DNA of 64,000 nt from Cognatiluteimonas profundi (GTDB taxonomy: Bacteria > Pseudomonadota > Gammaproteobacteria > Xanthomonadales > Xanthomonadaceae): the NCBI RefSeq assembly GCF_009792795.1, contig NZ_VKHQ01000003.1, forward strand, positions 310,001 to 374,000, written 5' to 3'. This document shows positions 41,205-64,000 of the stretch, in pieces. The notes under the pieces were generated by a model. The model did no database searches and had not been told where the DNA came from. It saw only the letters and a list, made by a program, of their open reading frames with translations. Within the stretch, counting starts at the first letter, position 1. Each line of letters starts with the position of its first letter. Position numbers and translations under genes: made by a program.

Positions 41205-41555
41205 ATGAACGACCTGATCCCGCTGTCCCAGGCGCATTGCATCGCGCGCAAGGGAATCGACCACCGCCTGACCGAGGCGCGCGTGCGTGAGCTGCTTCCG
41301 CAGGTCCCTGGCTGGCAATGCGTCGAGGACGGCCACGCACTGAGCAGGACATTCACCTTTCCCGACTATTACCAGACGATCGCCTTCGTCAACGCGCTGG
41401 CCTGGATGGCGAATCGGGAAGACCACCATCCGGACCTGAGCGTGCACTACGACCGTTGCGTCGTGCGCTACTCCACCCACGATGTCGGCGGGCTCAGCGA
41501 AAACGATTTCATCTGCGCAGCCAAGGCTGGGGTGCTGGTCGACGACACGCGCTGA
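41205..41555 (+). CDS. phhB: 4a-hydroxytetrahydrobiopterin dehydratase (pterin-4a-carbinolamine dehydratase)
   Basis: 116 residues. Recycles the pterin cofactor of phenylalanine hydroxylase. The family block [29 protein letters not shown] contains the conserved HHP motif, shown here in part (EDHHPDLSV), and the C-terminal [15 protein letters not shown] 41205 is preceded by a strong AGGAGG. phhA is not in the window. Confidence 0.92.
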
Positions 41556-41662
41556 GTTCGTGCTCAACGGCTCCGCAACGCAGCAATCGGCTGGTCGGGG
41601 CCAATCCATCCGGCCCTGATCGGGCTTCCTTTCCGTGCCAGCAAAAACCCGTGCGGCGGGAT

Positions 41663-44600: not shown

Positions 44601-46498
44601 GGGCCAGCCTGGACATCACGCGCCGCAAGATGGAGGAATCGCTGGAGCGCAACCGCAGCCTGATCCTGGAGCAGGTGGCGCAGAACCAGCCTTTGCCCGG
44701 GATCCTGTCGCACATCGTCACCATGCTCGAGATGCAGATGCCGCGGGCACGCTGCTCCATCCTGCTGCTGAAGGATGGCCACCTGACGGCCGGCGCGTCG
44801 CCACACTTGCCACCGGAATATTCCAACGCGCTGGAGGGGCTGCCCATCGGCCCCGCGGCGGGCTCGTGCGGCACAGCGTGTTTCCGGCGCGAAACCGTCA
44901 TCACCCCGGATATCGCCATCGACCCCTTGTGGGACGGCTATCGGGAGTTGGCGCTGCCGCACGGGTTGCGCGCTTGCTGGTCCATGCCGATCCCCTCCAA
45001 CCAGGACGGCGTGCTGGGATCGCTGGCGATCTACCACGACCAGCCAAGCTCGCCGAGCGAGCGGGACCTCGGTTTCATGGAGATGGCCGCGCGACTGGCG
45101 GCGGTGGCGATCGAGCATCGGCAACTGACCGACCAGCTGTCGCACCAGGCCCAACACGATGCCCTGACCGGCTTGCCCAACCGTTTGCTGTTCCAGGATC
45201 GCCTGGGCCAGGCCGTCGTCCAGGCCGGGCGGGAACGTCAACAAGTGGCCGTCCTCTACATGGACCTGGACCGTTTCAAGCACATCAACGACACCCTCGG
45301 CCATTCGTCCGGCGATGCCCTGCTCTGCCAGGTCGCCACCCGGCTCCAGGGCTGTGTCCGCAAGACCGACACGCTGGCCCGCCTGGGAGGGGACGAATTC
45401 ACGGTGGTGCTGACCGGCCTCAGGGACGCGCAAGACGCCATGCAGGTGGCGGAGAAGCTCATCGAGACGATGCGCGACCCCTTCCACGTCGAAGGACGCG
45501 AACTGTTCACCAGCATCTCGCTGGGAATCAGCATGTATCCCGACGATGGCCTGGACGGCGAGACATTGATGGTCAACGCCGACGTCGCGATGTATCGCGC
45601 CAAGGACGTGGGTCGGGACAATTTCCAGTGGTTCGCTTCGGAAATGAACGCCCGCGCCCGCGACCGCATGGCCCTGGAAGGCCAGCTACGCCACGCGATG
45701 GCGCTGGGGCAGCTGAGCCTGTGCTACCAACCCCAGTGCGGTGCCATGGGCGAGATCCGGGGATTCGAGGCGCTCATGCGCTGGCGCCACCCGGAGCTCG
45801 GCATGGTGTCCCCGGCGCGCTTCATCCCGCTGGCGGAAGACTGCGGCCTCATCGTCCAGATGGGAGAGTGGGCGCTGCGGGAGGCCTGTGCCCAGGCGGC
45901 TGCATGGCGCCGTGCCGGACATTCGGAATTGCGGATCGCAGTCAATGTGTCCGCGGCGCAGTTCAGGCGCACGGATTGGGTGGACACCGTGCGCCGGGCA
46001 TTGCGCGACACGCGCCTGGAGCCCGAAGCCCTGGAACTGGAAATCACCGAAAGCCTGCTGCTGCAGAACGTCACGGAAACATCGGCGAACCTGTTCGAGC
46101 TGCGCAAGCTCGGGGTCGGCATCGCCATCGACGATTTCGGCACGGGCTACTCATCGCTGAGCTACCTGCACAAGCTGCCGGTGACCACGCTGAAGATCGA
46201 TCAGTCCTTCGTGCGCGAGATCCGCGGCGAATCGATCCCGGGACAGGAAGAGGCGCCCATCATCCGCACGATCATCGCGCTGGCACGCAACTTCAGGATG
46301 AACGTGGTCGCCGAAGGCGTGGAAACCGAGGCCCAACGCGAACTCCTGCTGCGGCTGGGCTGCGAAAGCCTGCAGGGCTACCTGCTGCACCATCCATTGA
46401 GCTTGGAGCAGGCGGATGCCCTGCTCGACGCCGCGTCCAGGGAGTCGTTCACGGCGACCGGGAGCCTCGACCGGCGCCGGACCACCAGGCAAAGCTGA
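41663..46498 (+). CDS. Large multi-sensor GAF/PAS cyclic-di-GMP protein with GGDEF and EAL domains
   Basis: About 1611 residues, soluble, no signal or membrane helix seen. Domain order from internal motifs and spacing: GAF (40-190), PAS (200-320), PAS (325-445), PAS (455-570), GAF (580-735), PAS (745-865), PAS (870-990), GAF (1000-1150), GGDEF (1165-1320), EAL (1345-1590). The GGDEF motif is intact (RLGGDEF, about 1242), as are EAL (FEALMRW, about 1369), DDFGTGYSS (about 1490) and VVAEGVET. Both catalytic sets look active, so it may make or break cyclic-di-GMP depending on the sensors. Start: ATG 41663 or the ATG five codons on (41678); neither has an ideal ribosome site. Confidence 0.9.
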   Translation: MLRLVMNDITAPAEQPQPMLRISQLYAALSQINQAIVRVTTREQLFAEICEALVTFGKFKMAWIGWNDPATCTVSVASQYGDTDHYLAGISVRSDDTPEGRGPVGTAIREGTLCVVNDFLQSPITRPWHDAAARCGFRSIGVFPISMDGRVCGALAGYATEIDFFGPQEIELLVKAAADTSFALDHLAGESRRKQAEDTLRKVSRAVEQSPVAISIADRQGRIEYVNPKFTEITGYTSGEVTGEHLRLLHAQDMAPAEHQQLWDTITAGKVWERESRATKKNGEPCWRHSKISPVRDAAGHIDSFVIIEEDVTERRRMDMALEDRDRTLRAFYDGAPLMMGVVELTPGGDIIAVSVNEATASRYHRTAAEVVNLSARDAGMKEDEHATWLSKFREAESTGFPQRFELRGAWHGKPSCLAMVVSLIGRTAEGNPRLCFIGHDVSDRVAAEETIRRQNELHQLVQRATQDAIWDWDLISDTLQWNDSIQNQFGYHADEIPSQLDWWQHNVHRDDVTRVMSGLRHVVDSGGTFWSDEYRFRKGDGSFAHVLDRGYVVHDAQGRPIRMIGAMVDMTERKVGEQTQAALHHISEAAQTASTLPELFRSIHAIIGELLPAENFFVALYDERKDELTFPYYVDEHDGAPAPQGLDDGTLAGRVIRLGEALLFTPETPRAGSHEELAVVGTDSMDWLGVPLKSQSKTIGALVVQSYSGKVRYTEKHKALLDFVSGQVAAAIVRKQSEEALRASEARFRLLFEQNLAGVFRTLPDGLIIDCNDAFAQMLGYGSRAEILGTNSTSLYFEQEDRDSYLSELRARGALINFVARLRRKDGRELWGMETVNLIRNEQGEPEVIQGTLVDFTDRKHAEEALHLSESRLEEAQRLAHLGSWNWDLSSLSLSWSDELCRIFGVDPASHLPSYEDFLGRIHPDDRAFVETLVAQALKDLKPRSYEARIIRPDGEVRTIQDQSEVLVDDSGRARGMTGASLDITRRKMEESLERNRSLILEQVAQNQPLPGILSHIVTMLEMQMPRARCSILLLKDGHLTAGASPHLPPEYSNALEGLPIGPAAGSCGTACFRRETVITPDIAIDPLWDGYRELALPHGLRACWSMPIPSNQDGVLGSLAIYHDQPSSPSERDLGFMEMAARLAAVAIEHRQLTDQLSHQAQHDALTGLPNRLLFQDRLGQAVVQAGRERQQVAVLYMDLDRFKHINDTLGHSSGDALLCQVATRLQGCVRKTDTLARLGGDEFTVVLTGLRDAQDAMQVAEKLIETMRDPFHVEGRELFTSISLGISMYPDDGLDGETLMVNADVAMYRAKDVGRDNFQWFASEMNARARDRMALEGQLRHAMALGQLSLCYQPQCGAMGEIRGFEALMRWRHPELGMVSPARFIPLAEDCGLIVQMGEWALREACAQAAAWRRAGHSELRIAVNVSAAQFRRTDWVDTVRRALRDTRLEPEALELEITESLLLQNVTETSANLFELRKLGVGIAIDDFGTGYSSLSYLHKLPVTTLKIDQSFVREIRGESIPGQEEAPIIRTIIALARNFRMNVVAEGVETEAQRELLLRLGCESLQGYLLHHPLSLEQADALLDAASRESFTATGSLDRRRTTRQS

Positions 46499-51959: not shown

Positions 51960-53012
51960 TCAGATCACGATGCCCTTGCTGATGTAATAGTAGAAAACGC
52001 CGCAGGCCATGATCAGTCCGCACTGGATCACCGGCGCACTGCGCAACAGGGGCATGCGGCTGTGGCAAAGGACGGCCGCCAGCATCAAGGAGGCGGCTTG
52101 CCAGGCCGGCAACAGGTAGCGGTTGGAGAAGTAACCCCAGCCGAACATGAAGAACGGCAGCAGCATCACCAGGTAGACCGATGTACTGCGCTTGATGCCG
52201 TCCCGGTACGGTGCCTCGATCATGGGCGCCAGTGCGAACGGCAACACGTACCACGCGATCGAGAACATCGCGAAATCCACCCGCACGCCTGGGCTGAAGT
52301 AATGGTTCTGCGCGTACTCCATCACGATCGTGTAGAGCTGCGGCGACAGCGACTTCACCAGGTACATCGTCGTGCCCGAGCAGTACAGCAGCAATGCGAT
52401 GGCCGCCACGCCGGCCAGCTGCCGGGGCCGCAGGAACAACGCAGGCGCGAAGGCGATGTAGAGAAGCGCCGAATAATGCAGCATCGAGGCCGCGGTGCCG
52501 ATCAGCAGGAAGCGCCACCACTCGCGCCTCTGGAAGGCCATCAGCGCAGTGAAGACCAGCAAGGCGGACAGGCCCTGTCGTATGGCGTTGATCGAGGCGT
52601 TGACGAAGATCGGCGACAGCAGGAGGAACATCAGCGACGCGCCCAGGAACGTCACGTACCTGCAGGCAGCCCCCATGTAACGGTAGTACTCCCGGGTCGA
52701 GACGACGACCGTCGCCAGCAGCAGCGTGAACAGCGCAGCCTGGTAGCCGACAAGACCGACTCCCATCTTCTTGAGGAAAAGAGTGATGGCGACGAAGCCC
52801 GGCTCCAGCCGCGTTTCGAGCGGCTGCTGCATCACGCCGGCATAGAAGTCGGCATAGATCTTCGTATCCGTGCCGATCTCCAGTGGCCGCGTCGCCACCA
52901 GCCAGGTGGCAAAGGCAGCAACGGCCAGCAGCAGGAAGGCAGCCACGGCGTTTTCGGCCGTCGACCGCGCAACCTGCGTGGGAGACTGGAAGGCAGCGAG
53001 CTGGACGCTCAT
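51960..53012 (-). CDS. EpsG-family membrane protein (polysaccharide polymerase-like)
   Basis: 350 residues with about ten transmembrane helices. The N-terminal LEIGTDTKIYADFY and middle NAIRQGLSALLVFTALMAF with HYSALLYI fit the EpsG/Wzy-like family (PF14897), which polymerises or exports exopolysaccharide repeat units. ATG 53012 shares one base with the stop of the glycosyltransferase upstream (TGATG), so the two are coupled. It ends 46 nt from tRNA-Ser. Confidence 0.82.
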   Translation of the reverse strand: MSVQLAAFQSPTQVARSTAENAVAAFLLLAVAAFATWLVATRPLEIGTDTKIYADFYAGVMQQPLETRLEPGFVAITLFLKKMGVGLVGYQAALFTLLLATVVVSTREYYRYMGAACRYVTFLGASLMFLLLSPIFVNASINAIRQGLSALLVFTALMAFQRREWWRFLLIGTAASMLHYSALLYIAFAPALFLRPRQLAGVAAIALLLYCSGTTMYLVKSLSPQLYTIVMEYAQNHYFSPGVRVDFAMFSIAWYVLPFALAPMIEAPYRDGIKRSTSVYLVMLLPFFMFGWGYFSNRYLLPAWQAASLMLAAVLCHSRMPLLRSAPVIQCGLIMACGVFYYYISKGIVI

Positions 53013-53884
53013 CAGGATGCCCGCGGCCGGCGAACGCCGACGATGCGACGACCCAGCGTCACCAGCCGGTGCCGCGCCAGGCGACACTCGAGGCTGGACC
53101 TGGCGAGGCCGTATTCGGCAAGGCTGATGCAGCCACGGCGATAGAGCTCGCGCCTGGATTCGCGCCCCGCCCGATGCCTGGCGCGGACATCCGTGCTCGA
53201 CTCACCGGCGCCGCGCGGATGTTCATGGGCGACGCCCAGGACCTGGTTGATCTTCGCGCAACGATGACCGGCGAATGCGATCTCGCTCCACAGCAGGAAA
53301 TCCTCCGACCTCCGCAACGATTCGCTGAATCGAAACGGAAGGTCCCTCCGCAGCACCACGGACAGGGTCTGGATCGGGTTGTGCAACAGGAACAACTCCT
53401 TGGGCAGGATCCGCGCCAGCAATGGGAATGTCAGCGGGGCATCGCGCGGGAAGGAGCGCTGCCGGACCTCCACGCAATGCGATATCAGCGCGATGCGGGG
53501 GTCTGCATGCAGTACGGCCATCTGCAGTTCCAGCTTGCTCCGGCACCAGATGTCATCGGCATCGAGGAAGGCGATGAACCGGCATCTTGCTGCCTGCCAT
53601 CCGGTGTTTCGCGCGCATGAAGGGCCACCGTTCCGCCGCCGGCGGATCACCTTGATCCAGCCGTCGGGATGGCTGCTTGCGGCACGCCGGATCGCCATGC
53701 GCGTCTGCGGACCGCTGCCGTCGTCGACCAGCAACACCTCGGCTGGCAGCAGGGTCTGGGCGGCAACGGATGCGATGGCGTCGCCAACGGTGTGCGCGCA
53801 GCGATAGCAGGGAATCACGACGCTGACCGGCGCGAATTCCCGATCGGTGGGGAAATTCCGCATCTGCGTGATCACCGGCTGCAT
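53012..53884 (-). CDS. Family 2 glycosyltransferase (copy A)
   Basis: 290 residues with a GT-A fold: VSVVIPCYRC near residue 20, LLVDDGSG, the substrate-binding loop NGGPSCARNTGWQAA, and DXD as FLDADDIWC. It adds a sugar from a nucleotide donor to a glycan or lipid acceptor. ATG 53884 has GGGAGG 6 nt upstream. It is a clear paralog of the next gene upstream (copy B). Sits between the latter and the EpsG-like gene, apparently all one operon. Confidence 0.9.
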   Translation of the reverse strand: MQPVITQMRNFPTDREFAPVSVVIPCYRCAHTVGDAIASVAAQTLLPAEVLLVDDGSGPQTRMAIRRAASSHPDGWIKVIRRRRNGGPSCARNTGWQAARCRFIAFLDADDIWCRSKLELQMAVLHADPRIALISHCVEVRQRSFPRDAPLTFPLLARILPKELFLLHNPIQTLSVVLRRDLPFRFSESLRRSEDFLLWSEIAFAGHRCAKINQVLGVAHEHPRGAGESSTDVRARHRAGRESRRELYRRGCISLAEYGLARSSLECRLARHRLVTLGRRIVGVRRPRAS

Positions 53885-53987: not shown

Positions 53988-55019
53988 CTACCTGCTGGTG
54001 TCGTCGAGCGTCGAACATCGCTTCTCGCTTCCGACGGGCCACGCGGGGCCGAAGTCCGTATGCCTGCGCCCGGCGTTGAACGCCGGACCGTCGCGACGCT
54101 GCTGGGGGAGCGATTGCGACGATTCGAAATACGGCCAGACGAAGCAAGCCCTCGGCCGCCTGCGCCTGTTGGTGGTGCGCCGGCTCAGCATCACCAGGTT
54201 CCGCCGCATCCGGCGGCACCACCCGACGGGCCTGGAAATGTAGTGCTCGGCAGGACTGATCAACCCCTGCCGTCGCAATTCCTGCCGCACTTCCAATCCA
54301 GCCTGGTGCATTGCCCCGATGTCCGCGCTGAGTCCCCCAGCCCCGTAGGCAGGTTTGTGGGTTGCGGCCAGCACCTGGTTGATCTTGACGCACAGGAATC
54401 CGGACAGCGCGATCTGGCTCCAGAGCAGGAAATCCTCGACCAGCCGGAACTTCTCGTTGAAACGGAACGGTATGTCGGACCGCAACACGACCGAGCCCGT
54501 GCGGAACGGGTTGTGCAACAGGAATGCGCGCCTGTCGAGCGCCCGCGCGCGTAACGGATAGACCGGCGGTGGAGGTGGCAGCGACCGCTGGCGGACATCC
54601 ATCCGGTGCGAGATCAGTGCGATGCCGGGATGGGCGCGCAACAACGGCATCTGCAGCTCCAGCTTGTTGGGAAACCAGGTGTCATCGGAATCGAGGAAGG
54701 CGATGTGATCATGGCGCGCACGCTGCCAACCAAGGTTGCGCGCACGCGCGGCACCGCCGTTGTGTCGCAGGGCAATGACCTTGATCCAGCCATCCGGATA
54801 TCGCGACGCCAGTCGTTCGAGGCCTTCGGCGGTTCCGTCGCCACTGCCGTCGTCGACAAGCAGCACTTCGGCCGGCAACAGGGTTTGCGCAGCGATGGAT
54901 GCCACCGTCGCGCCAACGGTCTGCATGCAGCGATAACAGGGAATCACGACGCTGACCGGCGCGGTCTTTCGGGCGGGGCTGAAAGTGGGCGGTTGCCTGG
55001 TGACGAACTTCATCGACAT
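53988..55019 (-). CDS. Family 2 glycosyltransferase (copy B)
   Basis: 343 residues. Same GT-A motifs as copy A (VSVVIPCYRC, AAQTLLPAEVLLVDDGSG, NGGAARARNLGW, FLDSDDTWF) and long identical or near-identical stretches over residues about 20-250, so the pair is a tandem duplication. It carries an extra basic C-terminal tail of about 60 residues (from ...SRRTTNRRRRP). ATG 55019 has GGAG 4-5 nt upstream. A 103-nt gap separates it from copy A. Confidence 0.9.
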   Translation of the reverse strand: MSMKFVTRQPPTFSPARKTAPVSVVIPCYRCMQTVGATVASIAAQTLLPAEVLLVDDGSGDGTAEGLERLASRYPDGWIKVIALRHNGGAARARNLGWQRARHDHIAFLDSDDTWFPNKLELQMPLLRAHPGIALISHRMDVRQRSLPPPPPVYPLRARALDRRAFLLHNPFRTGSVVLRSDIPFRFNEKFRLVEDFLLWSQIALSGFLCVKINQVLAATHKPAYGAGGLSADIGAMHQAGLEVRQELRRQGLISPAEHYISRPVGWCRRMRRNLVMLSRRTTNRRRRPRACFVWPYFESSQSLPQQRRDGPAFNAGRRHTDFGPAWPVGSEKRCSTLDDTSR

Positions 55020-55378
55020 CGCACTCCATTGCCACAGTCGCTTCCTGCCGCAACCACCCACTTTCAGCTGCCTGGCAGCGTCAAGGCGTTTTCGACTGGC
55101 GCATTTTTTATTGCCGAGCTGTCAGCTCTGGTTAAGAAACTAACAATGCAGATGTGTTAGCCGCGTTAACGGCAGCAGGGTTTTTCCGACACCGGATGCA
55201 AGATGGCAACCGCTTGCCTGGTCGCATTTTCGTGAAGGACGTGTACGTGTCCGCTGCCCGGCAATATCCGCGTGGCCCTCCAGTTGAGTCGTGCATTCGC
55301 TTCACCTCGGCCAGCGCGCAGGACGTCGACACTCGTGCCGCACGGCAGGATGCAAACCGATCACCAGAGGGACCAGAC
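55020..55378. promoter_or_regulatory. AT-richer divergent region between glycosyltransferase and sulfotransferase
   Basis: 359 nt without a supported gene. The stretch 55090-55160 is clearly richer in A/T than its surroundings. It contains the perfect palindrome GAGCTG-T-CAGCTC (55116-55128) and a TTGCCG/TAAGAA pair spaced 16 nt that could be a promoter towards the sulfotransferase. Both divergent operons must start here. Confidence 0.4.
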
Positions 55379-56311
55379 ATGAGTGCACGCATCGCCGCTC
55401 CGAAGCCGAACCTCTTCCTTGTCGGCGCCCCGAAAGCGGGGACGACATCGATCGACCAACTCCTGCGGGAGCACCCGGACGTCTTCCTGTCGCCGATCAA
55501 GGAGCCATGCCACTTCTGCACCGACGTGGCCGACCAGCTGTCGCAAAGCGTCCAGCGCAAACGGAAGTTCGATGTCGCCGCTTACCTCGACGCGTCCGAA
55601 CGCAAGCTCGAAGGCCTGGCGTGGGTGGATTCACCCGGGCACTACGCGCGCCTGTTCGACGCTGCCGACGCCCAACCCGTCATCGGCGAGTGCTCGACGT
55701 TCTACCTGTCGTCGAAGGTCGCGGCGCGTGCCATCCACGACTACAACCCGGACGCCAGGATCGTGGCCTTGCTGCGCGACCCCTTGCAGCGGATCCGCTC
55801 GCATTACGAAATGGACCGCGTGCACGGCCTCACCGCGCGAAGCCTGACGTCGCTCATCGAGGAGGAACTCGCCCTGGGCGACGACGCGCATTGGGGGAAC
55901 TGTTTCTACTACCTGGGCGCGAGCCGGTATGCGCCGCAGCTCGCACGCTTCCGCCAGTATTTTCCGCACGACAAGGTGCTCGTCCTGTCGTTCGAGTCAT
56001 TGCTCGCCGATACCGAGGCCACCCTGCGCCAGCTGTACGCATTCCTCGGCATCGACGCGCTGCCGGAACTGCTTGCGCTCCCGTCGGCGAACAGGGGGCG
56101 CGCCGCCCGCTTTCCCGGCTTCAATCGCGCGCTGCATGCCAGCGGGCTGAAGCCGCTGGTGTCGGGACTGCTGAAAAGCGGGCTGTCGTCGCGGCTGGAG
56201 CAGCGGATGAAGTCCGCCTACTACCGCCGCGGCGTCCACGTCGTGTCGGACGAGGAAATGCAACGCATTGGACGCCTCCTGCGGGACGAGGGGCTGATGG
56301 CCGCGGCCTAG
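55379..56311 (+). CDS. PAPS-dependent sulfotransferase
   Basis: 310 residues. The 5'-phosphosulfate loop is FLVGAPKAGTTSIDQLL (about 12-28) and the 3'-phosphate motif is ARIVALLRDPLQRIRSHY (about 125-140). It moves sulfate from PAPS to an acceptor hydroxyl; bacterial relatives act on polysaccharides, lipids or peptides. I used ATG 55379 since AGAGGGA precedes it and it begins just before the first motif; the frame runs back to 55154. Next to a glycan operon and 2.8 kb from the lasso cluster, so a sugar acceptor is likeliest. Confidence 0.85.
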   Translation: MSARIAAPKPNLFLVGAPKAGTTSIDQLLREHPDVFLSPIKEPCHFCTDVADQLSQSVQRKRKFDVAAYLDASERKLEGLAWVDSPGHYARLFDAADAQPVIGECSTFYLSSKVAARAIHDYNPDARIVALLRDPLQRIRSHYEMDRVHGLTARSLTSLIEEELALGDDAHWGNCFYYLGASRYAPQLARFRQYFPHDKVLVLSFESLLADTEATLRQLYAFLGIDALPELLALPSANRGRAARFPGFNRALHASGLKPLVSGLLKSGLSSRLEQRMKSAYYRRGVHVVSDEEMQRIGRLLRDEGLMAAA

Positions 56312-57144: not shown

Positions 57145-58926
57145 TCAGGTCAACTCTTCCCGCAGATCGGCTGCGGAGGCGATTTCCCGCGGCGATGCCA
57201 CCGGCTGGTGGCGTGCTGGCGATAGTTGGCCGTCCTCGAGTTGCAGGATGCGATCGGCCAGCGCCAGGGTCGTGGGGCGATGCGTGATCAGGATGACCGT
57301 CCGCTTGTGCAGCACGCTGCGGCACTGCTCGATGAACATGGACTCGGCGTCGGGATCGAACATCGCGGTGGCTTCGTCCAGGATCAGGACCGCCGGATCC
57401 TTGAGCAAGGCACGGGCCAGCGCGATGCGTTGCCGCTGCCCACCCGACAGCCGGATGCCCTGGTCGCCGACGATCGTGTCGTAGCCATCCGGCAACCCGC
57501 GGATGAAGCCATCGGCCAGTGCTGCGCCGGCCGCGCGCTCGATGTCCGCATCCGACGCGTCGACATCGCCGTAGCGGATGTTGTCCCGGACCGATGCGTT
57601 GAACAGCAGCACCTGCTGCGACACCAGGCCCACGTGCGAGCGCAGGTTGCGCAGGGTCAGTTCCTTCAGGTCGACGCCGTCGAGCGAGATGCGCCCGCCT
57701 TGCGGGTCCACCAACCGCAGCAGCAGATGCGCCAGGGTGCTCTTCCCGGCACCGTTGGCTCCGGTGATTGCGAGCGTTTCGCCGGCACGCACCAGCAGGT
57801 TCAATCCCCTGAACACCGGCGGTCGCCCGGCATGGGAGAAATGCAGGTCTTCCAGTGAAACCTCGCCACGCACGTCGCGCAGTTCGCGCGTGCCGTCGTC
57901 GGGTTCCGGCGCGTGGGCAAACACGTCCATCAATCGTCGCGCCGTTGCACGTGCCGTCTGCACCTGGCCGTAGACGCCAGCCAGCTGGCTGATCGGCTGC
58001 GCCAGCAACAGCCCGTACATCAGGATCGTGACCAGGTCGGCGGCCGTCATCGTCCCCCTGGCAACGCTTTGACTGCTGATCCACAACAGCGCCAAAACGA
58101 AGGCCGAGACAAGGATCCGTGCAATCGGTCCGATGGCGTTCTGCAGTCGCACCTGGCTCAACTCGATCCGCCGCAGCGCTTCGGATTGCGCGGCGTAGCG
58201 TCGCGACTCCGCGCGCTCGCCGGAGAACGCCTTGACGATCGGCAACATGGCGAGGTTCTGCTCGGCCAGCGCGGATTTGCGGGCTTCCGCCTCGATTTCC
58301 AGTCGTGCCAGCGGTCGCAGGCGGCGGCCTGTCCAGCGCAGTGCGATGTAGAACACCGGCATCAGCGCCGATACCGCCAGCCCGATCGCCAGGTCCACGC
58401 GCACCATCAGGACGAATGCGCCGACACAGGTGAGCAGCAGCGGCATCAAGGGCGTCACCGTGCCGGTGACGAAGTAACCGAGCCGATAGACGTCTTCGGT
58501 CAACAGCACCAGGACTTCCCCACGGCGACGCTGTTCGTGCCACTGCAACGGCAGCGATTGCAGGTGGTCGAAGACGCGCGTCGATGCATCGGCGACCAGG
58601 TGGGACGCCACGGATTGGGAGCGGACCGCCACCACGTAACCCAGGCAGGCCTGCATCGCGATCACGACAAGCCAGATCAACAACAGCGACGTGACCGGAC
58701 GATCGCCCAGCAGCGCGGCGGAAAACCGCCCGGCCAGCCATGGCGTCGCCAGCGCCACCAGGCTCTGCGTGCACATCAACGCGACCATGGCGAGCAGGGC
58801 CAGCCGATACGGACGCACCAGCGCCAGCAGGAACCGCGCGTCCCGGCCCTCGCCGGCCGCCGGGTCTTTGCGCACTCCAGCATCTGCGCTTACGCTGGGC
58901 TCGTCGATGCCTCCAGGTTCCGCCAA
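57145..58926 (-). CDS. ABC exporter of the lasso-peptide cluster (D protein)
   Basis: 593 residues, a fused half-transporter: about six transmembrane helices (35-310), then a nucleotide-binding domain with Walker A GANGAGKST (about 390), signature LSGGQRQRIALARALL, Walker B AVLILDEAT and H-loop LITHRPTT. In lasso clusters such a protein exports the mature peptide and often gives self-immunity. The start is TTG 58926, backed by GAGGGGAG about 7 nt upstream; it abuts the GTG of the PqqD-like gene at 58927. A GTG at 58875 is an alternative. No C39 peptidase domain is present, as expected where a separate B2 peptidase exists. Confidence 0.9.
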   Translation of the reverse strand: MAEPGGIDEPSVSADAGVRKDPAAGEGRDARFLLALVRPYRLALLAMVALMCTQSLVALATPWLAGRFSAALLGDRPVTSLLLIWLVVIAMQACLGYVVAVRSQSVASHLVADASTRVFDHLQSLPLQWHEQRRRGEVLVLLTEDVYRLGYFVTGTVTPLMPLLLTCVGAFVLMVRVDLAIGLAVSALMPVFYIALRWTGRRLRPLARLEIEAEARKSALAEQNLAMLPIVKAFSGERAESRRYAAQSEALRRIELSQVRLQNAIGPIARILVSAFVLALLWISSQSVARGTMTAADLVTILMYGLLLAQPISQLAGVYGQVQTARATARRLMDVFAHAPEPDDGTRELRDVRGEVSLEDLHFSHAGRPPVFRGLNLLVRAGETLAITGANGAGKSTLAHLLLRLVDPQGGRISLDGVDLKELTLRNLRSHVGLVSQQVLLFNASVRDNIRYGDVDASDADIERAAGAALADGFIRGLPDGYDTIVGDQGIRLSGGQRQRIALARALLKDPAVLILDEATAMFDPDAESMFIEQCRSVLHKRTVILITHRPTTLALADRILQLEDGQLSPARHQPVASPREIASAADLREELT

Positions 58927-59223
58927 GTGCGCTCTCCCCTCGCCCAGCCGCTCACGCTAGCATGCCGCGCGCAACCGTCCGCGCGGGTCCGGCTGCAGCA
59001 GACGGGCGATGAAGCCGTCCTGCTCGACCTGGCCAGCGAATATTATTTCGGACTCGATGCGGTGGGGACGCGCCTGTGGCGGCTGCTGGAACACGATCCG
59101 GGTGTCCGCAACGCATTCGACACACTCCTGGGCGAGTACGACGTTTCCGCGGACAGGCTCGAGCACGACCTGCTGGCCGTACTCGCGCAACTGGCCGATG
59201 CCGGACTCGTCACGATTGAATGA
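58927..59223 (+). CDS. PqqD-like RiPP recognition element (lasso B1 protein)
   Basis: 98 residues from GTG 58927. The C-terminal 80 residues are a PqqD domain: VRLQQTGDEAVLLDLASEYYFGLDAVGTRLW with a following EYDVSADRLEHDLLAVLAQLADAGLV, shown here only in part. PqqD-like B1 proteins bind the precursor leader, mainly its conserved Tyr/Pro/Leu motif, and hand it to the B2 peptidase and the cyclase. The frame runs open far upstream (to 57913) as antisense of the exporter gene, so the start is judged by domain length; AGG lies 9 nt upstream. Its stop overlaps the B2 start by 8 nt. Confidence 0.88.
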   Translation: MRSPLAQPLTLACRAQPSARVRLQQTGDEAVLLDLASEYYFGLDAVGTRLWRLLEHDPGVRNAFDTLLGEYDVSADRLEHDLLAVLAQLADAGLVTIE

Positions 59224-59641
59224 CGGCGCACTCGCACGCTGGCGTGCATTGACGTGGCCTGATCGCGGGCGGCTGCTGGCACTGGTGTTGCTGCTTCCAA
59301 TGATCGACCTGTCGCTGCGGGCTTTCGGGCTTGGCGTCACCAGGCGGCTGCTCGGGATCGACCGCGGACGCGTTTTTCCCGGCGTGGCAACGTCCGATGC
59401 CCTGGCCGGCGCCGATCGCCTCGCGGTCCTGGCGTCCATCGCCGGCAGGCGCGGCGTGTATGCCAACACCTGCCTGCGCCAGGCGCTCGCGATCCAGTGG
59501 TGGCTGCGGCGCCGCGGCTTGCCGGCGGAACTGCGGATCGGCGCGCACGTCGTCGCCGGCAGCCTGTTGGCACATGCGTGGGTGGAGCTGGACGGCCATG
59601 CGCTGGCGCAATCCAGCGAGTTGCCTCCGGTCTTTTCCTGA
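59216..59641 (+). CDS. Lasso peptide B2 leader peptidase (transglutaminase-like)
   Basis: 141 residues from TTG 59216, typical length for the family (PF13471). An N-terminal hydrophobic segment (RLLALVLLLPMIDLSLRAF, about 19-37) precedes the papain/transglutaminase-like fold with its Cys in YANTCLRQALAIQWWLRRRG and His/Asp in AHAWVELDG. It cuts the leader after the -1 residue so the core N-terminus can be cyclised. The upstream ATG at 59009 lies inside the B1 gene in another frame; the TTG overlap with the B1 stop suggests coupled translation. Confidence 0.92.
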   Translation: MNDGALARWRALTWPDRGRLLALVLLLPMIDLSLRAFGLGVTRRLLGIDRGRVFPGVATSDALAGADRLAVLASIAGRRGVYANTCLRQALAIQWWLRRRGLPAELRIGAHVVAGSLLAHAWVELDGHALAQSSELPPVFS

Positions 59642-59669
59642 GCACGGGCGCCGCGGCACCCGGCAGGCG

Positions 59670-60773
59670 TCAACGCGATTTGTGCAGCAGGTGCACGACG
59701 CGTTCGCGCCACAGGCCGACCCATCCAGCGTCGCTGCCATACATCTCGCGCATGTGGGGGACCGTCGGGAACACCTTGCCCCAGATCCACGCCGCCCGCT
59801 GCGCCGTCGACGACAGCGCCTTGAGGTTCATGCGATGCATGTAGCGCCATTCGTGCAGGCGCTTGCCATCCACGCCATTGGCGTGGCGCGTTGCCTGCAA
59901 CGCCGACATCGCGAAGCCCGGCGTGGCATCGCCAAACCAGGTTGCGGCCGCCTCCAGGCTCGCCGCGCACACGCCGCCCAGGCCGCGCTCGCGGCACAGC
60001 GTCACGACGGTTTCCCAGTCCGATGGCGCGAGCCCTTGCGCCAGCAGGTGGACGTCATGCAGCCATTTCAGGCTGTCGCCGACGCCGGTGTAGAGGTTGA
60101 TGGCCCGATGCATGCCCGCGTGCAGCAAGGCATGTGCCGGCGACAGGCCGCGCGCGTGCGGCCCAAGCGCCGGCAACGGGATCGAAGCGGCAAGCAGCTC
60201 GTCGAAACCCAGCGACCGCGCAAACACCGGCGCATTGTTCAGGCCCCAATGCAGGTCGAGATCGAGCTGGATCGATCTGGACAGCGATCTCCTGCACACG
60301 AGTTCGTAGGCATGGCGACCTTGCGCATACCCATGATCGTAGCCATGGCCCTCAAGCAGGCGCTGGGCGCGGGTGACGGCATCGCGGGATGCGAACAGCA
60401 GATCGATATCGCTGCATTCGCGCAGGTGCGGTGCGGGATACAACCACCACGCCAGCGCCGAACCTTTCAGCAGCAGCACCGGGATCCCGGCTGCCGCCAG
60501 CACCGCCAGCACACGCTCGCATTCGGCTCCACGCAGCATCGCGATGGCGGTCGCGCCTTTCGCGGCTGCGGCGAATTCCACCCGCAGGGGATCGTCGCCA
60601 GCCCGCCCCTGCAGGCCTTGCGCAACCAGCGTCAGCACGCCTTCGGACCTGGCCAGTCGAATCGCATCCGCCACGTCGGCGAACGGAAATTCGTCGGCGG
60701 CACCCGCGCGGGCGCACAGCACATCGGCCAGCCATTGCCGGCGACGAACGACCCCCTGCGGCGATAAATCCAT
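59670..60773 (-). CDS. Nucleotidyltransferase of the lasso cluster
   Basis: 367 residues of the NTP_transf_5 family (PF14907). The motif LLLKGSALAWWLYP with SDIDLLF gives the catalytic acidic pair, followed by ELDLHWGL-like LDLDLHWGL. Homologs (for example PadeN of the paeninodin cluster) occur beside lasso kinases and are thought to modify a phosphorylated peptide; the exact reaction is not settled here. I used ATG 60773; the frame is open to 60962. It is convergent with B2 (28-nt gap) and divergent from the cyclase (35-nt gap), so it is its own transcript. Confidence 0.85.
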   Translation of the reverse strand: MDLSPQGVVRRRQWLADVLCARAGAADEFPFADVADAIRLARSEGVLTLVAQGLQGRAGDDPLRVEFAAAAKGATAIAMLRGAECERVLAVLAAAGIPVLLLKGSALAWWLYPAPHLRECSDIDLLFASRDAVTRAQRLLEGHGYDHGYAQGRHAYELVCRRSLSRSIQLDLDLHWGLNNAPVFARSLGFDELLAASIPLPALGPHARGLSPAHALLHAGMHRAINLYTGVGDSLKWLHDVHLLAQGLAPSDWETVVTLCRERGLGGVCAASLEAAATWFGDATPGFAMSALQATRHANGVDGKRLHEWRYMHRMNLKALSSTAQRAAWIWGKVFPTVPHMREMYGSDAGWVGLWRERVVHLLHKSR

Positions 60774-60808
60774 CACACTGATGCTAGCAGCACCACGCCA
60801 GCGGACCG

Positions 60809-62767
60809 ATGCAAGGCATCTGCGGTTTCTTCCATCTCGACCAGCAACCCGCATCGCCCGCCACGCTGGCGAGGATGCGCGACGCCCTCGTGCGCACGGC
60901 CTGGTCAAGCGGCGAGACCCTGGCCGACGGCCCCGTCGCATTCGCCGGCGTGCATTGGGCAACCGGCGAGCGCGTGCATGTGCCCGCCCTGCTCACGCAC
61001 GATCCGGCGAGCGGCTGCCACGTGGTCGCCGATGCGCGACTGGACGACCGCATCGATCTTGCCGGCGCGCTCGGCCTGTCGCCCGGCGATGCGCGGCAGG
61101 CCAGTGATGCCAGCCTGATCCTGCAGGCCTGGCTGCGCTGGGGCACTGACTGCGTCGATCGGCTTGAAGGCGATTTCGCCTTCGCCATCCACGATCCCCG
61201 CCGCGGCGGGCTGTTCCTCGCACGCGACCGAATGGGCGTGCGGCCGCTCCATGTGCATCTGGCGCCGGGGCAACTGTGCGTCTTCGCGTCGAGTACTTCG
61301 GCAGTGCTCGCGCATCCGCAGGTTCCCGCCACGCTCGACGAAGGCCGCATCGCCGACTTCCTCGTCACCCAACTCGAAGGCATCGACAAGTCGTCGACGT
61401 TCCATCGCGACATCCGGCGCCTGCCGCCCGCGCACTGGCTCGCGATCACGCGCGACGAGGTCCGCGAGCAACGTTACTGGTCGTTGCAGCGCATGCCTGC
61501 CGGGCAGCTGCCAACCACCGACGCGGGCTGGACGGACGCGCTGACCGATGCACTGGAGGCTGCCGTCGCACGCCACCTCGCCGGCCCGGAGCGGGTCGGC
61601 TGCATGCTCAGTGGCGGGCTGGATTCGTCGTCGCTGGCCATCATCGCCAACCGGCAACTTGCCGCGAGCGGGCGCGAGGCGCTGGCGACGTTCTCCAGCA
61701 TCGACGGCAGCGACATGGATTGCGCCGAAACGCGCGCGATCCGCGCGATGCTCGACGTTCCCGGCTTCCAGCCGACGCTGGTCGACCATGCCCGACTCAC
61801 CGCGCTGCGGCCACGGCTCCTGCGCTGCATCGACGACGCCGAGGAACCCTTCGATGTCGCGACGGCACTGCTGCACGCGCAATACCTGGCCGCCTCCGGC
61901 CAGGGCATCGATGCGGTGATGGATGGCCTCGATGGCGATTCGCTGTTCCTCGCCGGCGGTGGCCTGTCGCGCCAGCTGCGCAGCGGCCACTGGTTGGCGG
62001 CCTGGCACAACGCCTGCGGCCTGCAACGCATCCATGGCAAGGCATCCGCCCCCACCTGGCGCGTGCTCGGCACCGCCGCTCGTTCGGCGCTGCTGCCGAA
62101 GGCACTTCGGCCTGCGCTGCGGGCAATGCGCCGGGGACCGGACACCCGCCGCAACATCGCCATGTCGCTGATCGCACCGGAGTTCGCCCGGCGCACCGAC
62201 CTGCGCGGCCGACTGGCGACACTGGCGGCGCAACGCTCGCCCGGTCCCGGCGCCGACGCGCCTGCCGAGGCCCTGCAGGCACTCGACCATGCCTACCTGA
62301 CGGTCGCGCTGGAGCGCTATCACCGGGTCGCCGCCGCCCATGGCATCCAGCCGCGCCACCCGCTCACCGACCGGCGCCTGGTCGAACTGTGCGTCAACCT
62401 TCCCGATGCGCAGCGATTCGCCAACGGATGGAGCAAGGCCGTGCTGCGGCGAAGCATGCAGTCCCGGTTGCCGGCCGCCGTGTGCTGGCGCACGGGCAAA
62501 CAGCACCTGGGCTGGTCCCTCAACCGCAAGTTGCGGGAGGGCGATCACGCGGCGCTGGGCGATCGGCTCGGCGCCGTCCGGGGTCTCCTGCAACCCTACG
62601 TCGACCTGTCCAGGCTCGATGCGGCGCTCGCCCGCCTGCGCGGCACGGGCGACGACCTGGCCGCCGAGTTGGTATTCGATGCCCTGTCGCTGGGCAACTG
62701 GCTGGATCGGAACGCCCACCGGGCACAGGCGACGGCGGTCCGATCGGAGCGTGAACCCGTCGTGTAG
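60809..62767 (+). CDS. Lasso peptide cyclase (asparagine-synthetase-like C protein)
   Basis: 652 residues. The N-terminal half is a class-II glutaminase-like domain and the C-terminal half an ATP-pyrophosphatase domain with the P-loop SGGLDSSSLA (about 270), then DGLDGDSLF. The starting sequence is MQGICGFF: the catalytic Cys at position 2 of true asparagine synthetases is Gln here, so glutamine cleavage is not expected. This fits a lasso cyclase, which adenylates the ring Glu/Asp side chain and joins it to the core N-terminus. It is followed after 98 nt by the precursor gene. Weak ribosome site. Confidence 0.92.
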   Translation: MQGICGFFHLDQQPASPATLARMRDALVRTAWSSGETLADGPVAFAGVHWATGERVHVPALLTHDPASGCHVVADARLDDRIDLAGALGLSPGDARQASDASLILQAWLRWGTDCVDRLEGDFAFAIHDPRRGGLFLARDRMGVRPLHVHLAPGQLCVFASSTSAVLAHPQVPATLDEGRIADFLVTQLEGIDKSSTFHRDIRRLPPAHWLAITRDEVREQRYWSLQRMPAGQLPTTDAGWTDALTDALEAAVARHLAGPERVGCMLSGGLDSSSLAIIANRQLAASGREALATFSSIDGSDMDCAETRAIRAMLDVPGFQPTLVDHARLTALRPRLLRCIDDAEEPFDVATALLHAQYLAASGQGIDAVMDGLDGDSLFLAGGGLSRQLRSGHWLAAWHNACGLQRIHGKASAPTWRVLGTAARSALLPKALRPALRAMRRGPDTRRNIAMSLIAPEFARRTDLRGRLATLAAQRSPGPGADAPAEALQALDHAYLTVALERYHRVAAAHGIQPRHPLTDRRLVELCVNLPDAQRFANGWSKAVLRRSMQSRLPAAVCWRTGKQHLGWSLNRKLREGDHAALGDRLGAVRGLLQPYVDLSRLDAALARLRGTGDDLAAELVFDALSLGNWLDRNAHRAQATAVRSEREPVV

Positions 62768-62779
62768 GAAAATACCTAC
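62764..62779 (+). promoter_or_regulatory. Hairpin at the cyclase stop, upstream of the precursor gene
   Basis: GTAGG-AAAATA-CCTAC overlaps the cyclase stop codon. It may shield the cyclase 3' end or regulate the precursor. A weak TATTCT at 62796 could be a -10 box for a separate precursor transcript. Confidence 0.35.
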
Positions 62780-62865
62780 CCGGTCGCAAAACGGCTATTC
62801 TTGTGACGCCGGTCCAGAATCCAGGGCACCGGCCTACCGCTCGACGAAGGCCACAGGGGGCTTGC

Positions 62866-63048
62866 GTGAACGACCAGGGCAACATTGACGTGACTACGTC
62901 GATCCAGAAGAACGATGCGCGCCAGCAGTACACCGCGCCGACACTCGTGACATTCGGCGCGATCCGCGATCTCACCGCGGGCGGCTCCAGCGGGAAGAGT
63001 GAACATGGCAGGCCGGGCGGGGGAGAACAGTTCGGGCATCGTGGGTAA
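62866..63048 (+). CDS. Lasso peptide precursor (A protein)
   Basis: 60 residues from GTG 62866, with AGGGGG 6 nt upstream. Leader 1-38 holds every residue of the YxxPxLxxxGxxxxxT motif: Y22, P25, L27, G31, T37 (Thr at -2). Predicted core is residues 39-60, 22 residues. Gly1 could bond to Glu8 (ring GGSSGKSE, eight residues), the only Asp/Glu at positions 7-9. The tail has HGRPGGGEQFGHRG, with Phe18, His20 and Arg21 as bulky candidates for locking the ring. It ends in Gly, and its only Ser residues (3, 4, 7) are in the ring. The upstream ATG-frame to 62803 is an overlong alternative and would overlap nothing useful. Confidence 0.88.
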   Translation: MNDQGNIDVTTSIQKNDARQQYTAPTLVTFGAIRDLTAGGSSGKSEHGRPGGGEQFGHRG

Positions 63049-63081
63049 CTGCTGACGCTAGCGAGTAGCCGCACGGCTTTC

Positions 63082-63128
63082 GACCTGCGGTAGGTCTTCG
63101 ACGCCGATTCCCGATGCCAGCATCGGGA
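63082..63128 (+). terminator. Two stem-loops between the precursor and kinase genes
   Basis: GACCT-GCGGT-AGGTC at 63082-63096, and a perfect 8-bp TCCCGATG / CATCGGGA around CCAG at 63109-63128, ending 12 nt before the kinase GTG. Such structures often let a precursor message be more abundant than the genes after it. No U run is visible, so attenuation or message stabilisation is inferred. Confidence 0.5.
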
Positions 63129-63140
63129 TGTGAGCATCCA

Positions 63141-64000
63141 GTGTCTGCAACGATCTACCACCACCGGTTCGCGGGCTTGCGGCTCGTGTCCGACCTGCAC
63201 CTGCCCGAACTCCCCCGGGCAGCGCCGGACGCATGGGCGGATTTCCGCATCACCATCGCGCCGACGCCGGTCTTCCCGGCGATGGCCAGCGTCGATTGGC
63301 AACACGACTTCACCGACAACGACGGCGCCCATGCGTTCCGCTGCGTGCGCGTGGGTGGCGAATACGGATTCGACTTCCCCGGGGTGGCGCAAGCCTGGGT
63401 GACGCCGGACAACGGCATCGCGCTGTGGCAGCGCCACGACTCCACCATGGAATCGGTGCGCCACGTGCTGCTCGACCAGGTCCTGCCGCGCCTGCTCGCC
63501 CAGCGTGGACACATGGTGCTGCATGGTGCCGCGGTGCACACGCAGGACGACTGCACGCTGCTGATGATCGGCGACAGCGGCATGGGCAAGTCGACGCTGG
63601 CCGCCGCCTTCGGTCGCGCGGGGGCCGACGTGCTCAGCGATGACGGCGTACTGATCGCATTCGACGCCGCCAGCATCCATGCCGTGCCGTGCTATGCGGG
63701 CCTGCGGCTGTGGCCGGACTCGCTGGGCAGCGTGCTTGCCGATCGCGTCGCCGATTCCACCGCCATGGCGCACTACAACGACAAGCGACGACTCCTGCAG
63801 CCCGGGCCGACGCGCGCCAGCTATCCCATCGATGCGATCGTGCTGCTGCAACCATCGATCGACGCCAGCACCATCGCGATCCAGTCCTGCGCGACACAGG
63901 CCGCATGCATCGCACTGGTGGGCAATGCCTTCCAGCTCGACCTGGGTGACCACGGCAACCTCGTCGCACTGCTGGCGCGGGCCGCCGATGTCGTCCAGCG
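63141..64000 (+). CDS. HprK-like lasso peptide kinase (truncated by window end)
   Basis: 286 complete codons from GTG 63141, running off the right edge. Start chosen as MSATIYHHRFAGLRLVSDLHLPE; the P-loop LLMIGDSGMGKSTLAAAF is at about 138-155 and the LSDDGVLI motif (HprK-type Walker B with paired Asp) follows at about 168. HprK-like kinases in lasso clusters (PadeK, ThcoK) phosphorylate the precursor's C-terminal Ser. It is encoded after the precursor. No Ser is at that C-terminus here, so its target is open. Confidence 0.85.
   Translation, partial: MSATIYHHRFAGLRLVSDLHLPELPRAAPDAWADFRITIAPTPVFPAMASVDWQHDFTDNDGAHAFRCVRVGGEYGFDFPGVAQAWVTPDNGIALWQRHDSTMESVRHVLLDQVLPRLLAQRGHMVLHGAAVHTQDDCTLLMIGDSGMGKSTLAAAFGRAGADVLSDDGVLIAFDAASIHAVPCYAGLRLWPDSLGSVLADRVADSTAMAHYNDKRRLLQPGPTRASYPIDAIVLLQPSIDASTIAIQSCATQAACIALVGNAFQLDLGDHGNLVALLARAADVVQ

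Follow-up and report, generated by a model that had tools for sequence, protein, structure and literature searches.

Gene content of the locus

We analysed a 64,000-nucleotide stretch of the 2.7 Mb genome of Cognatiluteimonas profundi (RefSeq assembly GCF_009792795.1, contig NZ_VKHQ01000003.1, here C13:310001-374000, forward strand; hereafter the window), and also read another 10 kb beyond its right edge. The right end of the window holds a real, complete predicted lasso-peptide cluster. Pfam and NCBIfam profiles, together with the reading frames, showed all seven genes of the pathway within 57145-64000 (Table 1), namely those for an exporter (D), a leader-binding protein (B1), a leader peptidase (B2), a nucleotidyltransferase (N), a cyclase (C), the precursor (A) and an HprK-like kinase (K). 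An earlier note, made from the letters of the window, had described these as seven genes of one pathway for a ribosomally synthesized and post-translationally modified peptide (RiPP), and as a complete-looking lasso cluster in a Lysobacteraceae genome; the profile matches and the related clusters described below bear out both statements.

Table 1. Features of the cluster, its flanks and related loci (window positions unless a locus, L, is named).
Feature	Position	Strand	Evidence or remark
D, ABC (ATP-binding cassette) exporter, MsbA-like permease/ATPase	57145..58926	-	PF00664 and PF00005
B1, PqqD-like leader-binding protein (RiPP recognition element, RRE)	58927..59223	+	PF05402, E 2e-15; proposed GTG start
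B2, transglutaminase-like leader peptidase	59216..59641	+	NF033537, PF13471; proposed TTG start overlapping the B1 stop
N, nucleotidyltransferase, Pol-beta fold	59670..60773	-	PF14907, 135 bits
C, lasso cyclase, asparagine-synthetase type	60809..62767	+	PF00733, PF13537, NF033535
A, precursor leader, 38 residues, GTG start	62866..62979	+	homologues in P0002 and L003
A, 22-residue core and stop codon, predicted ring Gly1-Glu8	62980..63048	+	
Ser3 codon, predicted phosphoacceptor	62986-62988	+	Ser/Thr3 in 15/17 Lysobacteraceae cores of the group
K, HprK-like kinase, 338 residues in all	63114..64000, and 130 bases beyond the window	+	weak family matches, motif, fold model
EpsG family protein, polysaccharide-type, not a lasso gene	51963-53087	-	
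GT2 glycosyltransferase, polysaccharide-type, not a lasso gene	53015-53884	-	
GT2 glycosyltransferase, polysaccharide-type, not a lasso gene	53991-55061	-	
Sulfotransferase (Sulfotransfer_3)	55154..56311	+	
PrmA/methyltransferase-type gene of related loci	L038:9843-11054, L042:10228-11412, L043:8111-9295, L039:7700-8890, L046:3313-4464		L039 also PRMT_C

The three functions that mark a lasso pathway, a leader-binding B1, a B2 peptidase and an asparagine-synthetase-type cyclase, are thus all present. B2 scored 58.8 bits with NF033537, above the cut-off of 33, and its sequence has a Cys in TCLRQ and a His in AHAWVE, which we take to be the catalytic pair. NF033535 was the best NCBIfam match of the cyclase (389 bits), yet below its cut-off of 525 bits, and the lasso_PqqD models scored B1 under their cut-offs. 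Homologues of the exporter occur in most related clusters. From the reading frames, the most likely starts were revised to 60773 for N, to the GTG at 58927 for B1 and to the TTG at 59216 for B2.

The gene order implies at least four transcription units (-, +, -, +), in both directions, as the earlier note had counted. That note had also allowed for a continuation past the right edge. The kinase gene does run on, to C13:374130, but the genes that come next are galE (-; TIGR01179), fcl (GDP-L-fucose synthase, +; NF047922), both above cut-off, and a phosphomannomutase gene (-). We therefore rejected any further lasso gene on this side; the cluster ends with the kinase.

The precursor

The leader carries the YxxPxL pattern as Tyr(-17), Pro(-14) and Leu(-12), followed by Gly(-8) and Thr(-2), and the core has an acid, Glu8, within positions 7-9, as expected of a lasso precursor. 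The core begins GGS and ends in Gly, and its sole hydroxyl residues are Ser3, Ser4 and Ser7. Its mass after cyclisation, recomputed here, is 2118.969 Da, in agreement with the 2118.97 Da calculated earlier by hand. The core had been called unfamiliar, and a word-based search of 5.8 billion proteins returned the precursor itself and one metagenomic relative (P0002, 62% identity over 60 residues), which has a near-identical leader end and a different core that also ends in Gly. L003, a locus from another genome of the genus, has a precursor with this leader pattern and a differing core, again placed between cyclase and kinase. A conserved leader, a variable core and a fixed place argue for a real precursor, and we predict a threaded lasso product from it.

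Distribution of the cluster

A search of 297 family genomes gave kinase matches at E<=1e-3 in 47, of which many were weak. The cluster type, counted as a kinase with the same nucleotidyltransferase and cyclase types in the neighbourhoods fetched, is held by at least 15 of the 297: the window's genome, G184 and 13 others. The cluster genes are spread over two contigs in G184 and G095, and over two adjoining stretches in G081. In the genus, two of nine genomes have a strong kinase homologue. The gene order of the window recurs, mirrored, in L035, with a homologous precursor between cyclase and kinase, and L222 and L003, two contigs of one other genome in the genus, are consistent with it as well, which is more than expected by chance. 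Farther afield, and with the window's own genome included, kinase relatives were found in 15 of 369 genomes of the class (E<=1e-12) and in 43 of 398 of the phylum; in f213, a family of another class of the same phylum, they were found in 24 of 199 genomes (E<=1e-25). The pairing of kinase and nucleotidyltransferase, which the earlier note had called best known from paeninodin-type clusters of Firmicutes, is not confined to that group. Among the papers listed by our literature searches, none appeared to deal with a kinase-bearing lasso cluster of Lysobacter or Xanthomonadaceae.

The kinase and its relatives

Two acceptor sites have been described for lasso kinases in the available texts. PadeK, ThcoK, SyanK and PsmK act on a C-terminal Ser (PMC8498205, PMC9266682), as did all lasso phosphorylations reported before BsfK (PMC10368454). 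BsfK of Bradymonas sediminis places its phosphate on core Ser3, as shown by tandem mass spectrometry and an S3A variant, which was principally unmodified; S3T is accepted, B1 stimulates the reaction, the enzyme is reported to be strict for position 3, and the C-terminal residue of BsfA is Asp (PMC10368454). No other lasso kinase is reported to act on the ring in the literature searched, as far as its text was available.

The window kinase matched known families weakly (TIGR04352, 32.6 bits against a cut-off of 200; PF07475, 18.2 against 33.3), and a sequence search against solved structures gave nothing useful. Its AlphaFold model, with a mean predicted local distance difference test (pLDDT) score of 89.1, has a phosphoenolpyruvate (PEP)-carboxykinase-type fold, and its best matches are PEP carboxykinases (TM 0.43-0.56 by query length, among the best 50 rows). 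HprK belongs to the P-loop fold of these enzymes. Residues H137, G153, G156, G158, K159, S160, D176 and D177 are invariant across 12 kinases, the window's included, and form the motif H..G..G.GKS..DD, which agrees with the published BsfK numbering. Since the C-terminal-Ser kinases share this motif, it does not tell the two types apart. The best named relative (63% identity) is from a Lysobacteraceae metagenome-assembled genome; the contig that bears it is apparently identical with one from a member of the window's genus, down to the precursor.

A maximum-likelihood tree built from 76 kinases placed that of the window in a 19-row fork (support 95/85). The other rows of the fork are the kinases of the Lysobacteraceae clusters of this type, together with five from f213, of which two (L124, L135) are long-branched; we refer to this fork as the ring group. 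It stood apart from a 44-row comparison group that holds most Ser-ending precursors. A quick 82-row tree, which omitted 16 loci with outgroup or long-branch kinases, kept the ring group, now of 24 rows, with an approximate likelihood-ratio test (aLRT) value of 96, and the window kinase again lay outside the main C-terminal-Ser group. Both trees were built without BsfK, PadeK, ThcoK and SyanK, and their groups are labelled by precursor features.

TIGR04352 is the best NCBIfam match of the kinase, which raises the question of whether this is an HprK-related kinase A module with no role on the peptide, particularly as TIGR04352 kinases adjoin frames that weakly match the nucleotidyltransferase profile, without a cyclase. 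We think this highly improbable. Four true TIGR04352 kinases score 245 to 408 bits, and we rejected that identity for the window kinase because its score lies far under the cut-off; the three true members present in the tree lie in a branch far from it, and its gene is directly 3' of the precursor.

The C-terminal residue of the precursors follows the kinase groups. When all predicted rows were counted under one rule, spurious ones included, from 20 ring and 42 other loci, a terminal Ser was present in 2/22 rows of the ring group and 18/20 of the comparison group (rows were found at 16/20 and 18/42 loci, respectively). A later set of 16 non-ring loci gave 18 rows, 12 of them with a terminal Ser and one (L273) looking spurious. 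The core of L265, near the ring group in the 82-row tree, ends in Asn. Basal loci contributed four rows, with Thr, Gly, Asn and Gly as their last residues and no Ser/Thr3, so a third group may exist.

These groups bear on a paeninodin- or pseudomycoidin-type reading, in which the kinase would phosphorylate the C-terminal residue and the nucleotidyltransferase would glycosylate it there. The pseudomycoidin cluster does have the same K and N gene types (PMC8498205 and PMC9266682, available in part), and the core of L003, the closest relative, ends in Ser. However, the window core and P0002 both end in Gly, precursors of the ring group seldom end in Ser, and the window kinase lies outside the main C-terminal-Ser group. 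We rejected C-terminal phosphorylation on the terminal Gly and the kinase grouping, and give it only a small chance of being correct.

Several related clusters deserve mention in their own right. L077 and L141 have basal kinases and cores of the types GFAGSVPDEQ... and GFAGSIPDEQ...; these cores lack both Ser/Thr3 and a C-terminal Ser and may represent a third acceptor type. In genera g17 and g6 of the family, the precursors of L049, L050, L051, L052 and L055 follow the pattern W.(T/A)P.VSFL.IDETAN, have short cores that end in Ser, and adjoin kinase, cyclase and B1; no precursor row was found at L053 and L054. Genome G081 holds a ring-type and a C-terminal-Ser-type lasso cluster (L047, L048) within ~25 kb, its ring-type kinase match being in two pieces, one with an in-frame stop.

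Core position 3

At core position 3, Ser or Thr occurs in 15 of 17 Lysobacteraceae ring-group cores, compared to 1 of 27 distinct cores (a Ser) from kinase-free lasso clusters of the same family. With repeats removed the counts are 14/16 and 1/23 (Fisher p 1e-7, a value that wrongly treats loci as independent). At each of the other positions 1, 2 and 4-7, the 17 cores have Ser/Thr in one to five cases. The 17 were listed by hand as plausible precursor rows of Lysobacteraceae ring loci with an acid at 7-9, a list that omits a spurious L002 row, the acid-less L035 core and P0002, and to which L046 contributed no row. The kinase of L048 is partial and outside the tree, so this locus was classed with the ring loci from its neighbouring genes. 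The 27 control cores were judged plausible, with identical repeats removed, from a listing that also held spurious rows; a cluster was called 'kinase-free' when the retrieved stretch, 3.6 to 12.5 kb long, held no kinase match.

This covariation and the published BsfK precedent are why we predict Ser3 as the acceptor, with fair confidence. Another ring Ser (Ser4 or Ser7), or several without a strict position, might be phosphorylated instead. Both residues are in this core, and among six f213 cores of the ring group Ser2 is found in five, four of them without Ser/Thr3 (Ser/Thr3 occurs in two, and L262 has both), and the site of phosphorylation may therefore shift along with the ring. If the leader were cut one residue earlier, those five f213 cores would have a Ser3 and a nine-residue ring. 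Compared with 15/17 at position 3, the Lysobacteraceae cores have Ser/Thr at positions 4 and 7 in just 2/17 and 3/17, and the strictness reported for BsfK also argues for a fixed site. We therefore consider other ring serines an unlikely choice.

Two further features of related cores were seen. The L035 precursor (L035:10120-10293) has the right leader, and either has another cleavage site or gives a non-lasso product. In genus g51, the cores of L038, L040, L042 and L043 end in ...KHC plus one residue and have a second Cys upstream, which suggests a disulfide in the tail.

The nucleotidyltransferase and neighbouring sugar genes

In the nucleotidyltransferase, K103-G104, D122-x-D124 and D173-x-H175 (KG...DxD...DxH) are invariant in 15 sequences, the window's included, so that the cluster, like that of pseudomycoidin, has a PF14907-type protein with an intact Pol-beta motif. 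We take PsmN, the pseudomycoidin enzyme, to be of the same family. The AlphaFold model (pLDDT 92.2) had its best PDB matches, over ~190 columns, with two Pol-beta type nucleotidyltransferases: MenT1 (E 4e-4) and, as the weaker of the two, ANT(2'')-Ia (E 1e-2). In the available text, PsmN is described as adding one or two hexoses onto the phosphoserine of pseudomycoidin, or as nucleotidylating it before a host enzyme acts (PMC9266682), and clusters of rumen Firmicutes also contain nucleotidyltransferase, HPr kinase and glycosyltransferase genes (PMC7533575, in the part available).

The cluster lies among polysaccharide-type genes. Next to galE, fcl and phosphomannomutase on its right, the window has a GT2 gene on the left, and further left a second GT2 gene and the EpsG family gene. 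Sugar-nucleotide or glycosyltransferase genes were found <=4 kb from the cluster ends at 18 of 22 ring loci (Lysobacteraceae 12/15, f213 6/7), compared to 8 of 91 comparison loci (Lysobacteraceae C-terminal-Ser 0/7, kinase-free 1/34, other kinase loci 7/50); the Fisher p of 2e-11 treats loci as independent, which they are not. This count gave no group label to L047 (same genome as L048), L056, L057, L082 to L086, L124, L135, L144 to L152, L203, L206 and L222 to L225. Among nine outgroup HprK-like kinase loci without a lasso cyclase, sugar genes occur at one, and eight have a weak match to the nucleotidyltransferase profile nearby (30 to 62 bits); four of the nine kinases are the true TIGR04352 members named above. 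The relatives have NAD-epimerase and GT4 genes, manC, rmlB, or rmlA and rmlD, and where tested the named genes scored above NCBIfam cut-offs. That of L038 is an rmlB-type dTDP-glucose 4,6-dehydratase by NCBIfam; at L118 the rmlB-type model is the best match, just below cut-off on a partial frame, and no NCBIfam model scored above cut-off for the epimerase (EPI) gene of L036.

At 20 ring loci the stretch includes the nucleotidyltransferase. Measured on stop-to-stop frames, it lies <=100 bp from a sugar gene, or overlaps one, at 13 of these, on the same strand in seven (L036, L038, L039, L040, L042, L043, L045) and on the opposite strand in six. At L035, L037 and L044 the distance is 2.5 to 4.1 kb, and no sugar gene was found near it at L041, L046 and L261. 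A literature search on lasso peptides together with polysaccharide biosynthesis and nucleotidyltransferases returned a single paper, which in the part available names such genes without discussing a link. The nucleotide-sugar and glycosyltransferase neighbourhood of these clusters is new here, and hints at attachment of a sugar to the peptide.

The neighbourhood could instead reflect the locus rather than the product, with a surface-polysaccharide locus collecting a mobile cassette and the nucleotidyltransferase adding a nucleotide or acting in a way unrelated to sugar. Surface-polysaccharide loci are recombination hot spots, the cluster is patchy in the genus (a strong kinase homologue in 2/9 genomes), and the modelled fold is that of a Pol-beta nucleotidyltransferase. 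Set against this are the strength of the association in ring-kinase clusters and its near-absence (1/41) from C-terminal-Ser and kinase-free clusters of the same family, the change of sugar genes with lineage (galE/fcl/phosphomannomutase, epimerase with GT4, manC, rmlB, or rmlA/rmlD), and the closeness of N to sugar genes at the 13 loci. We regard this explanation as a strong contender, with a little under an even chance.

Other genes also stand beside these enzymes in related clusters. A PrmA/methyltransferase-type gene adjoins the lasso kinase in five of them, though not in the window, and may encode another tailoring enzyme. At L039:2158-3405, the gene of a radical SAM/SPASM protein lies beside the nucleotidyltransferase of a ring-kinase cluster.

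Proposed pathway

Drawing on the genes, conservation, motifs, fold models, kinase grouping and covariation with position 3 established here, we consider it probable that the seven genes make a 22-residue lasso peptide whose Ser3 is likely phosphorylated by the kinase, and to which the nucleotidyltransferase then adds a group, likely a sugar. B1 would bind Tyr(-17)/Pro(-14)/Leu(-12) of the leader and present the precursor to the kinase, which would phosphorylate Ser3 on the linear precursor. The nucleotidyltransferase would modify the Ser3 phosphate, B2 would cut after Thr(-2)-Ala(-1), the cyclase would join Gly1 to Glu8 around the threaded tail, and the ABC protein would export the product. 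The order of steps and the acceptor are modelled on work on BsfK and paeninodin, and the sugar on PsmN and the gene neighbourhood; the nucleotidyltransferase step is predicted only loosely.

A number of observations weigh against this pathway. Expression of the cluster and modification of its product are predictions from the genes. BsfK is absent from the trees, so any kinship with the window kinase is conjectural, and the 44-row comparison group is weakly supported (80/65). L046 and L117 yielded no precursor, the first core of L036 has Val3 and the L041 core Gly3, and the L035 core has Ser3 with no Asp/Glu at positions 7-9, so that a lasso reading of it fails under the Thr(-2) rule. The Ser end of L003 and the Ser2 of the f213 cores point the same way. 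The kinase is not the only difference from the kinase-free controls, which apparently have a fused B. Ring loci supplied the queries for the sugar genes, which favours the ring set in that count, and these loci are related to one another. In the window the nucleotidyltransferase lies 3.3 kb from the nearest sugar-nucleotide gene, and its modelled fold is that of a nucleotidyltransferase, not a glycosyltransferase.

With these data, the single case of BsfK looks like one of at least two kinase groups whose branch predicts the acceptor, either a C-terminal Ser or Ser/Thr3 of the ring. The PF14907 nucleotidyltransferase gains a candidate role from its repeated nucleotide-sugar gene neighbourhood. 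A bolder and rather doubtful extension is that ring-kinase lasso peptides are glycoconjugates, the Ser/Thr3 phosphate being coupled by the nucleotidyltransferase to a sugar or polysaccharide unit that the neighbouring surface-polysaccharide genes produce. In that case cells would bear or secrete lasso peptides linked to glycan by a phosphodiester.

Other features of the locus

The sulfotransferase gene left of the exporter was rejected as a tailoring gene, as no homologue was found in the 25 loci scanned, and it is probably outside the lasso cluster. A tRNA-Val, considered as a possible integration site, neighbours the cluster. The window also encodes, at 41318-46495, a 1726-residue protein that combines GGDEF and EAL with multiple PAS and GAF domains.

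Comparison with known systems

The xanthomonin-like, kinase-free lasso clusters of the same family share the lasso cyclase and B2 domain with the window. They differ in having no kinase, nucleotidyltransferase or separate B1 match in 34 stretches with a cyclase, an apparently fused B, leaders without YxxPxL and, with one exception, no Ser/Thr3.

The comparison with paeninodin made in the earlier note was half right. The clusters of paeninodin (PadeK), ThcoK and SyanK likewise combine a B1/B2 lasso pathway with an HprK-like kinase acting on the precursor; the paeninodin-like framing of the kinase and nucleotidyltransferase does not hold, as those kinases phosphorylate a C-terminal Ser, an acceptor missing from the Gly-ending core of the window cluster, whose kinase groups elsewhere. 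Pseudomycoidin (PsmK and PsmN) resembles the window in having both enzymes in a lasso cluster, with PsmN leading to a hexose on the phosphate, but its acceptor is a C-terminal Ser and its host a Bacillus.

The closest counterpart is the bsf cluster of Bradymonas sediminis FA350, and by these features the window cluster appears to be of this ring-Ser3 kind rather than of the paeninodin kind. It belongs to a different bacterial group; the name Lysobacter does not occur in PMC10368454, and the available text of that paper mentions no polysaccharide-gene neighbourhood for bsf. The window precursor has Thr(-2) and Glu8 where that of bsf has Ile(-2) and Asp8. Even so, bsf has the same seven gene types (BsfA, B1, B2, C, D, K and N, the N gene being noted in PMC10368454, available in part), a core with Ser3, an acid at position 8 and a C-terminal residue that is not Ser, and, compared by published description rather than by sequence, the same kinase motif pattern, H-G-G-G-K-S-D-D.

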